Source: Halorubrum saccharovorum DSM 1137
GTDB lineage: Archaea; Halobacteriota; Halobacteria; Halobacteriales; Haloferacaceae
Direction: 5' to 3'
DNA: 61,380 nucleotides
Assembly (NCBI RefSeq): GCF_000337915.1
Contig: NZ_AOJE01000060.1
Span: 62,870-124,249 of the forward strand
Shown: positions 1 through 61,380 of the stretch, piece after piece
How positions within the stretch are numbered: the stretch's first letter is position 1
Layout of the letters: each line of letters starts with the position of its first letter
The notes under the pieces: generated by a model
Seen by the model: the letters and a program-made list of their open reading frames with translations, nothing else
Database searches by the model: none
Told to the model about the DNA's origin: nothing
Translations under genes and position numbers: made by a program

Positions 1-155
1 CTATCGCTCGCGGGAACGCAACCGCAGCCTCACACCTCCCCAGCCTCGCGGTTCGCGCTCTCCGAGCGCTCACCGCGTCCCTCGCGCGGCACTCCTCGCG
101 GTCGCCGGTGGCGACCGCTCGGAGGCGCGCGCCGACAGCAGAATTCGTTTATAAA
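1..155 (+). repeat. Dispersed hairpin repeat, copy A (5' part outside the window)
   Basis: Right-hand part of the repeat family also seen at 7829, 49688 and 61154. It shares the block CCGCAGCCTCAC...CCTCCCCAGCCTCG and ends in TTTATAAA (148-155), 20 bases from the stop of the convergent gene at 175. Two stem-loops are visible. 48-60 pairs with 64-76 around a TCC loop, with a symmetric TC/TC internal mismatch. 98-106 pairs perfectly with 110-118 around a GGT loop. The second stem is the counterpart of 8129-8149 but has one T-A pair where that copy has C-G, so pairing is kept. No coding capacity is evident. Confidence 0.8.
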
Positions 156-7828: not shown

Positions 7829-8188
7829 TTATAAACGATCGAGTCTTCTGCGGTGACGCTCTCCAAAGCCCCAGTCGGTGAGGACGGCGCACGCTCGCTG
7901 TGCTCCTCTCTCAGTCGCTGACGCTCCTTCGCTGCGGTGCTTGCGTCACCTGCGCCGTCCTCACCGACTGCCCCTTTGAGTCCCATCCCGCCCGCTACCG
8001 CACAGCAGCCTCACGCCTCCCCAGCCTCGCGGTTCGCGCTCTGCGAGCGCGAACCGCCCCCTCGCACGGCGCTCTCGCCGGCGGCGGAGCCGCCGGCTGT
8101 CAGAGAGACCTTCGGTCTCTCCCTACTCGCGGCCGCCGGTGGCGGCCGCTCGGAGGCGCGCGCCACCGCACCGCAGATCTATTTATAA
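7829..8188 (+). repeat. Dispersed hairpin repeat, copy B (complete, with near-matching ends)
   Basis: Complete copy of the family, in the gap between two gene ends. Outer ends are near inverted repeats: TTATAAACGATC (7829-7840) against GATCTATTTATAA (8176-8188). The head block CAAAGCCCCAG is followed by a perfect 20-bp stem, 7872-7891 with 7951-7970, enclosing 59 bases; CAAAG and CTTTG outside it can also pair. Then come four perfect stem-loops with three-base loops: 8029-8041/8045-8057, 8077-8085/8089-8097, 8103-8110/8114-8121 and 8129-8137/8141-8149. The right end lies 12 bases from the stop of ilvA. Short frames through it look spurious. Confidence 0.85.
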
Positions 8189-49470: not shown

Positions 49471-49574
49471 CGGTCCGTCGCGGTCTCGCCCGACTTCTTT
49501 CGTTTATCAGCCGCGTAGTAGCAACGCCGGCGTCGTCGAAGCGATCCTCGGCGATACGTGATCGACAACTCCGC

Positions 49575-49687
49575 GGTGAACACTGCCAAAGCCCCAGCCG
49601 CTCGGCTATAAGCGGCCCCAGCAGATCGACGGTGAACACTGCCAAAGCCCCAGCCGCTCGGCTATAAGCGGCCCCCAGCAGATCGAC
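49575..49687 (+). repeat. Two tandem head units of the dispersed repeat
   Basis: Two near-identical units of 56 and 57 bases, starting at 49575 and 49631, each with GGTGAACACTGCCAAAGCCCCAG and then a small stem-loop GCCGCT...AGCGGC. The full repeat copy C begins at 49688 with the same 23-base head. So the head occurs three times in series and then continues into the large stem only in the third. Spacing is regular (56, 57), which argues for tandem duplication of a head-plus-stem unit. Confidence 0.85.
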
Positions 49688-49964
49688 GGTGAACACTGCC
49701 AAAGCCCCAGTCGCGAGGACGGCGCACGCTCGTTGTGCGCTTCAGTCGCTCACTTCGTTCGCTCCTTGCAGTGCTTACGTCCCCTGCGCCGTCCTCGCGA
49801 CTGCCCCTTTGAGTCCCACCCCGCCCCACACAGCACCGCACCTCACGTCTCCCCAGCCTCGTCAGTCGCCCTCCGCGTTGCTCCGGGCGACTGACTCCCT
49901 CGCGCGGCGCTGTTCGCGCCCTTCGGGCGCTCACAGGCGCACGCCACCGCAGTTCGTTTATAAA
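49688..49964 (+). repeat. Dispersed hairpin repeat, copy C
   Basis: Full copy after the tandem head units. The main stem, 49708-49726 with 49785-49803, is a perfect 19-bp inverted repeat and differs from the stem of copy B by one base fewer and compensated changes. Downstream, 49861-49871 pairs with 49885-49895 (11 bp, 13-base loop), and GCGCCC (49916-49921) with GGGCGC (49925-49930) around TTC. The right end TTTATAAA is at 49957-49964. No coding capacity that looks real. Confidence 0.85.
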
Positions 49965-52147: not shown

Positions 52148-52356
52148 TCGCTGTGAGAGCGTTGCTGCCGGAGCGTCGCCGTCGGGGCGCCGTCACCGGA
52201 TTCGCTGTGAGGACGTTGCTGTCGAGGCGCCGTCACCGGATTCGCTGTGAGGACGTTGCTGTCGAGGCGCCGTCACCGGATTCCCGTGAGGACGTTGCTG
52301 TCGAGGCGCCGTCACCGGATTCGCTGTGAGGGCGTTGCTGTCGGGACGCCGGTTCG
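52148..52356. repeat. 40-bp tandem repeats upstream of the thermosome gene
   Basis: A unit of 40 bases beginning TCGCTGTGAGGACGTTGCTG and ending GGCGCCGTCACCGGAT recurs at 52202, 52242 and 52282. A longer first copy at 52148 carries a 14-base insertion, and a shortened last copy runs from 52321 to 52356. The period, 40-40-39, is not a multiple of three, so a coding repeat is unlikely. There are no unique spacers, so it is not a CRISPR array. It lies about 230-440 bases upstream of the thermosome start and just downstream of the small gene at 52400. Confidence 0.8.
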
Positions 52357-61153: not shown

Positions 61154-61380
61154 GGTGAAGGCCTCCAAAGCCCCAGCCGGGAGGCGGGCGCACGCTCGCT
61201 GTGCTCCTCACTCGGTCGCTTCGCTCCCTCGCTGCGGTGCTTCCGTCGCCTGCGCCCGCCTCCCGGCTGCCCCTTTGAGTCCCGCCCTGCACAGCACCGC
61301 AGCCTCACGCCTCCCCAGCCTCGTCGCTCGGTCGGGGCTCCCGGCGGTCGCCCGCTCCCTCGCGACTCCCTCGCGCGTGC
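61154..61380 (+). repeat. Dispersed hairpin repeat, copy D (3' part outside the window)
   Basis: Fourth copy, cut by the window end. The head GGTGAAGGCCTCCAAAGCCCCAG is followed by a perfect 19-bp stem, 61174-61192 with 61251-61269, whose sequence differs from copies B and C by paired changes. The inner block GCACGCTCGCTGTGC, itself a small stem-loop, is shared with copies B and D and slightly changed in C. It lies beyond the gatB start, in the opposite direction, in an intergenic region. Confidence 0.82.

Follow-up and report, generated by a model that had tools for sequence, protein, structure and literature searches.

The window analysed here, a stretch of 61,380 nucleotides from Halorubrum saccharovorum DSM 1137, contains four copies of a real, widespread and structurally conserved haloarchaeal repeat, which is non-coding, folded, roughly 330 bases long and located between genes; its fold and its distribution are established by our analyses. 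We judge the chances to be about even that it is a haloarchaea-specific, non-autonomous REP-like element, in which one folded strand is the unit of selection and the fold is what is maintained. If this is true, most haloarchaea carry an apparently undescribed element whose fold is kept more strictly than its sequence, which would make selection on a folded DNA or RNA strand in intergenic space open to direct testing and would point to a novel mobiliser or binding protein. The initial annotation of the window had described a dispersed, structured repeat family, an observation that is confirmed here, and had offered a miniature inverted-repeat element (MITE), a REP/BIME-like repeat or a structured RNA as interpretations, which are partly supported.

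Copies in the window and in the genome

All four places at which a shared head block, a tail block or both had been reported are copies of the element (Table 1). They lie outside genes, as annotated, and no transposase was seen beside them. Their neighbours are ordinary host genes, which we named by reading the translations: the copy at 7829-8188 adjoins presumed genes for a threonine dehydratase-like protein and a small zinc-ribbon protein, and the second complete copy (49688-49964), which is preceded by two head units, adjoins what we take to be the genes of ribosomal protein L15e and a thermosome subunit. The single orientation that had been reported holds for the four window copies, whereas both orientations occur genome-wide. 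The complete copy is indeed highly structured (z = -7.3 versus shuffles), but the conserved fold is on the minus strand, and it was the complementary strand that had been read. The series of stem-loops described for this copy includes two hairpins (about 8074-8128) that belong to a separate, inserted mini-element.

The expectation of many copies genome-wide was borne out. In the own genome (3.42 Mb in 72 contigs), blastn with the complete copy yielded 77 pieces, and a covariance model of the core (R1) gave 42 matches at E ≤ 0.01, among which 35 fall below 1e-7; the copy number is about 40. The model allows the element to be annotated at once. The C domain of the third window copy is found just outside the window, at G000:C60:62748-62866. 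Both copies at the window ends (1-155 and 61154-61380; L011 and L002) run on in the scaffold across an N, which means that the assembly breaks at copies of the element, and the element would explain assembly breaks in haloarchaeal genomes. At the right scaffold join (61380), the sequence past the N duplicates the sequence leading up to it, an apparent artefact of assembly. Window positions 52167-52351 are occupied by another tandem repeat, which has a unit of ~40 nt and was recorded as four overlapping 66-nt copies (repeat family D6).

Table 1. Positions of the element copies and their parts in the window
Feature	Position	Strand	Basis
Complete element copy	7829..8188	-	read directly; TTATAA-containing motifs at 7829-7836 and 8182-8188
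C domain (GA-rod hairpin), complete copy	7860..7982	-	R1 match, 120.9 bits; covariation
T domain, complete copy (hairpins T1 and T2, GAGGGA, GAGGCTGGGGAGG)	8009..8169	-	alignment
Two-hairpin mini-element inside T domain (approximate limits)	8074..8128		missing from most aligned copies
Two tandem 46-nt head units, mutually identical	49574..49675 (49574-49619, 49630-49675)		repeat family D17
C domain, second complete copy	49696..49815	-	R1 match, 138.7 bits
T domain, second copy, with TTTATAAA at 49957-49964	49841..49964	-	repeat family D19, alignment
T domain, third copy, truncated by window start	1..155	-	repeat family D19
C domain, fourth copy	61162..61281	-	R1 match, 128.4 bits
T domain, fourth copy, truncated by window end	61303..61380	-	repeat family D19

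A conserved fold on the minus strand

The C domain is a rod of about 120 nt, in which short covarying stems are separated by near-invariant tandem G·A mismatches. Among the own copies, and then in an alignment of 40 Halorubrum cores, stem sequences vary freely yet remain complementary, and certain unpaired letters are near-invariant. The plus strand shows UC/UC steps, the equivalents of which on the minus strand are tandem GA/GA mismatches and GNA loops. These form a well-known stable combination, and because they appear on the minus strand of the window, we take this strand to be the structured one. The fold is strongly strand-specific. An outer stem, P1 (CAAAG/CUUUG), is followed by a G-rich internal loop (GGGC/GGGG, kept in 71 of 80 Halorubrum cores) and by a long, variable and covarying stem, which is interrupted by GAA/GA in some copies. 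Next come GAC/GA, a two-pair step, AA/GCA, a helix with a central A·A or A·C, and GCA/GA, and the tip usually consists of three two-pair steps separated by GA/GA, with a cap that is mostly GNA. Tandem GA/GA is kept in 75-76 of the 80 Halorubrum cores, and distant copies adopt the same rod.

Covariation in this fold is very strong. In a MAFFT alignment of 40 Halorubrum cores made without structure (A1), from which the structure was then read, 90.6% of the cells are paired, 25 of the 37 pairs changed on both sides, and 163 cells are double-changed, compared with 40 ± 7 after shuffling and no more than 20 when the structure is slid. Among 69 cores from other genera, double changes were detected in 34 of the 37 pairs and in 636 cells (188 ± 12 when shuffled, at most 86 when slid), in an alignment that was fitted to the model and whose percentages lean towards the structure. 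The shuffle test may be inflated by related copies; the slide test retains their relatedness. The covariation supports a conserved secondary structure, and does not separate RNA from DNA.

In a copy on the ilvA side (L073, in G031), the inner part of the C domain runs opposite to the outer stem that encloses it, the arrangement that a flip of the loop by recombination between the two stem arms would leave. C domains in other families are often paired head to head in inverted orientation; such pairs are about 30-40 nt apart in L123, L126, L132 and L137, and a few hundred nt apart in G075 (L355, L356, L366, L369 and L370).

T domain, ends and nested insert

The T domain, which is located 5' of the C domain on the minus strand, adds two hairpins in the order hairpin T1, an invariant GAGGGA, the variable hairpin T2 and GAGGCTGGGGAGG. 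Hairpin T1 carries GA/GA in 21-22 of 22 copies, and several distant copies have a T domain in the same place (L107, L112, L122, L125, L131, L134, L135, L138 and L139). On the plus strand, tandem head units of about 50-75 nt stand ahead of many Halorubrum copies; these units include a TATA-like motif as well as the opening letters of the core. TTATAA motifs flank most Halorubrum copies. Directly upstream of the copy beside the L15e gene in G036 (L207) is an array of about five TTGTTTATAAGTGGTCGAGTGGCGTTGCTGTCGG units.

Mini-elements like the insert at 8074-8128 are also present in L004, L014 and L022. Their layout is a GC-rich hairpin, TGTC, a second hairpin, and CTAC or similar, and they sit within hairpins of the larger element; others were seen in L030 and, apparently inside a coding frame, in L027. 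The mini-element behaves like the SMRs that hit palindromes in Haloquadratum, as described in the available text of PMC3119063.

Distribution among haloarchaea

Copies are present in all 52 genomes of the genus Halorubrum, and within the order matches at E ≤ 1e-3 were found in 161 of 243 genomes, representing 59 of 78 genera. Of 197 genomes sampled across the phylum, 25 were positive, and since all of these fall within the same order, the pattern of matches is not due to chance. A DNA pattern search covered 84,980 species genomes; among the matches listed (at least 80 records) all were Halobacteria, including Haloarcula, Natrinema, Natronococcus, Haladaptatus, Halorussus and Halobaculum. Genomes differ widely in copy number, some having no copy and G075 about 80.

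The initial annotation had named two findings that would speak against its reading, namely a match to an Rfam family or a named insertion sequence, and restriction of the copies to the window. Rfam gave no match at gathering score, and the family is haloarchaea-wide. The literature that was searched, mostly open papers, contained no description of the element, for which an earlier name is possible, and literature searches with sequence strings returned nothing on archaea.

In a phylogenetic tree, of which we use the printed origins of the loci and the clade of own copies, several distant loci being mislabelled as G000 in the table of groups, the own copies (15 rows) form one clade with 100/99 support, separate from the copies of other lineages and families, and the G075 copies group largely together. 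Such clades reflect either amplification after the lineages split or homogenisation within lineages. The lineage-specific clades and the patchy copy number indicate that the element spreads. Viral spread was considered and rejected, since phage records gave no matches to the element and a single match on a viral contig lacks the core motifs; plasmid records gave two partial matches and nothing more.

Genomic placement

Gene orientations were counted in the sister genome G017 with a codon-usage gene caller. None of its 40 copies is inside a gene; 19 are in convergent, 19 in tandem (8 sense, 11 antisense) and 2 in divergent gaps, compared with 148, 570 and 147 such gaps overall. The convergent enrichment corresponds to a binomial p of about 9e-6 by gap number and 3e-4 by intergenic length. 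The convergent/tandem/divergent counts are 10/10/5 in the own genome and 14/21/4 in other Halorubrum, and the three Halorubrum sets pooled give a convergent to divergent ratio of 43:11, i.e. the 3' ends of genes are preferred. Other families (11/40/16) show no convergent enrichment, which makes the 3'-end preference a Halorubrum feature, and its absence in these families counts against the REP-like reading. A role in terminating transcription from both sides, or in insulating convergent genes from each other's transcription, would fit the Halorubrum counts, but we regard such a function as quite improbable, because the other families are not enriched, the purging of promoter insertions yields the same pattern, and the fold is so strongly tied to one strand.

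The position beside ilvA had suggested a cis-acting mRNA element or 3'-UTR switch, which was rejected, since sense and antisense orientations are equally frequent among the tandem copies; no bias of this kind relative to genes was detected.

On the 2.74-Mb main contig of the 3.7-Mb G017 genome we found 46 of 47 sites (p 1.7e-5; the site list has 50 rows, three of which repeat a site on the opposite strand). Some distant contigs that are possibly plasmids carry copies (L252; C5 and C6 of G232), so that the restriction to the chromosome may be a feature of Halorubrum only. About 480 kb of the main chromosome (G017:C2, about 1,818,000-2,295,000) has no element match, compared with roughly one per 55 kb elsewhere.

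Persistence and sequence turnover

Mapping of insertion sites against gaps between orthologues, as proposed in the initial annotation, revealed shared positions at ilvA, in the L15e-thermosome gap and at further places, but no precise empty site. On the ilvA side, most of the 30 Halorubrum species examined keep a copy or a remnant in the same orientation, and the gene on the opposite flank often differs among species. The L15e-thermosome gap contains a copy in nine relatives, the own genome included, whereas G021 and G037 are among the genomes that have none there, although the two genes have stayed adjacent. In ten cores from the ilvA side, about 97% of the pairs are intact at a stem-position divergence of 25%, with 345 two-sided versus 130 one-sided changes. 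Standing copies that are selected for their fold would show this pattern, as would ectopic conversion or re-insertion at one spot, which could also underlie the similar divergence within and between sites. Concerted evolution was set aside, as orthologous cores (differing by 0.214 and 0.230) are no closer than cores from different sites (0.215) or own paralogues (0.230), which is a signal of neither orthology nor homogenisation.

Mobility

The element has the short imperfect palindromes, the many intergenic copies and the avoidance of genes that characterise REP-like repeats. An element mobilised by a Y1 transposase, whether of the REP/RAYT type or a PATE (derived from IS200/IS605), would likewise be hairpin-rich, intergenic, multicopy and, as in Halorubrum, without inverted terminal repeats, and PATEs are described in Haloquadratum and Halorubrum in the available text of PMC3119063 and PMC10544981. 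However, Y1_Tnp (PF01797) gave no match at E ≤ 1e-10 in five copy-carrying genomes (G075, with about 80 copies, G086, G015, G159 and G183), G106 is the reverse case with seven Y1_Tnp matches and no core match, and the neighbours of distant copies include no recurrent protein family. As several copy-rich genomes lack the Y1 transposase, a REP/RAYT or PATE origin is unsupported and, in our estimation, very improbable; the presence and absence of Y1/RAYT genes across genomes do not support them as mobilisers. The intergenic hairpin repeats agree with the REP/BIME-like interpretation in the initial annotation.

Rather unlikely, too, is an ordinary MITE, on the ends of which a DDE transposase acts and whose conserved interior is a passenger structure. 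Amplification is lineage-specific, as in MITEs, and in G054 and G055 inverted repeats (GTGTTCAGATAAG/CTTATCTGAACAC) about 205 bp apart enclose C domains; a related pair occurs in L167. In L143, L166 and L167 (families f4/f5), the C domain is located within 13-bp inverted repeats (GTGTTCAGATAAG or GTGTTTAGTTAAG). The 13-bp repeats in a few copies of other families point to an ordinary DDE-type MITE route there, and in these cases, though not as a general rule, such ends could be used by a transposase in trans. Most distant copies have no inverted repeats around them, and the Halorubrum ends carry only the palindromic TTATAA instead of terminal inverted repeats. No parent transposon or longer element with the same ends was found in the genomes searched, and a passenger structure should decay, yet the pairing and the G·A motifs persist between families. 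Terminal inverted repeats of the kind expected under the MITE option of the initial annotation were seen only in a few copies of other families, not in Halorubrum. A search for a mobilising enzyme, a precise empty site and a target duplication found none of these, and precise ends could not be derived from empty sites, the relatives being too divergent to define junctions.

RNA or DNA

A multicopy structured non-coding RNA, with an own or neighbouring promoter for each copy and a GA rod that binds a protein or ligand, appears unlikely to us. It would account for the RNA-like internal loops that are conserved over many genera, which we count for RNA, and for the excess of G·U over A·C on the structured strand (66:35 and 77:52), and the TTATAA motifs at the Halorubrum ends could be promoters. 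Outside Halorubrum, however, the upstream windows hardly show any TATA-like motifs (2 of 50 and 0 of 50), and an independent promoter was therefore rejected for most copies there, on a comparison without a matched promoter control set. By our own reckoning, the TATA spacing on the Halorubrum minus strand would put the start within hairpin T1. The loops are GNA or GNNA; all four-base GNNA loops seen in the C domain and T1 have a pyrimidine in third place, and none is GNRA. The equal numbers of sense and antisense tandem copies and the lack of an Rfam match also argue against an RNA, and the lack of an orientation rule with respect to transcription is counted for a DNA role. The G·U share of the element (2.3-3.5%, versus 4.9% in the tRNAs of a sister genome) is not decisive. 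The structured RNA proposed in the initial annotation is consistent with the covariation-supported fold, and has no counterpart in Rfam. Between the two, on arguments that are indirect and of which none is decisive, we consider DNA the more probable.

The REP-like reading implies the following sequence of events. Copies would spread within lineages through a trans-acting enzyme other than the Y1/RAYT transposase, and insertions in genes and promoters would be purged. Surviving copies may be retained because a host factor recognises the folded strand, which would more likely be extruded or single-stranded DNA than RNA, and they would act as archaeal counterparts of REP/BIME elements. A more specific version, in which a strand-specific folded DNA element is the putative target of a host factor, is selected as an extruded or single-stranded G·A rod and spreads without a known transposase, is put forward tentatively. 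It perhaps has a role in chromosome organisation or replication in polyploid, high-potassium cells.

Comparison with known repeats and motifs

Extra-stable DNA minihairpins of the d(GCGNAGC) type and tandem sheared G·A motifs are known. The C(GNA)G and C(GNNA)G loops and the 5'-GA/GA-3' tandem mismatches of the element resemble these, but here the motifs form part of a long natural rod that occurs in many copies across the genome. Like MITEs, the element is short, non-coding and lineage-amplified, with inverted repeats in a few copies from other families; unlike MITEs, most copies were found without inverted repeats or target duplication, and the interior is conserved, not the ends alone.

In placement, copy number and hairpins it comes closest to bacterial REP/BIME elements (PMC2817692), with which it shares tens of intergenic hairpin copies that are absent from genes, mosaic and tandem arrangements and, in Halorubrum, a depletion between divergent genes. 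It differs from them by its 120-nt non-Watson-Crick rod and T domain, by its restriction to haloarchaea and by its presence in genomes without a Y1/RAYT gene. A survey of archaeal REPs left out the haloarchaea (PMC12306157).

The nearest described haloarchaeal repeats are the PATEs and SMRs of Haloquadratum walsbyi (PMC3119063); a PATE is also present in Halorubrum lacusprofundi/HRTV-DL1 (PMC10544981). The available text of these two accounts does not describe the fold of the element. According to the same text, PATEs and SMRs are, like the element, free of transposase and associated with palindromes, nested small hairpin inserts and deletions between short direct repeats. PATEs derive from the ends of IS200/IS605 elements, as far as these texts go, whereas the element is without a Y1 link and is distinguished from them by its bias towards the main chromosome in G017 and its strong covariation over many genera.
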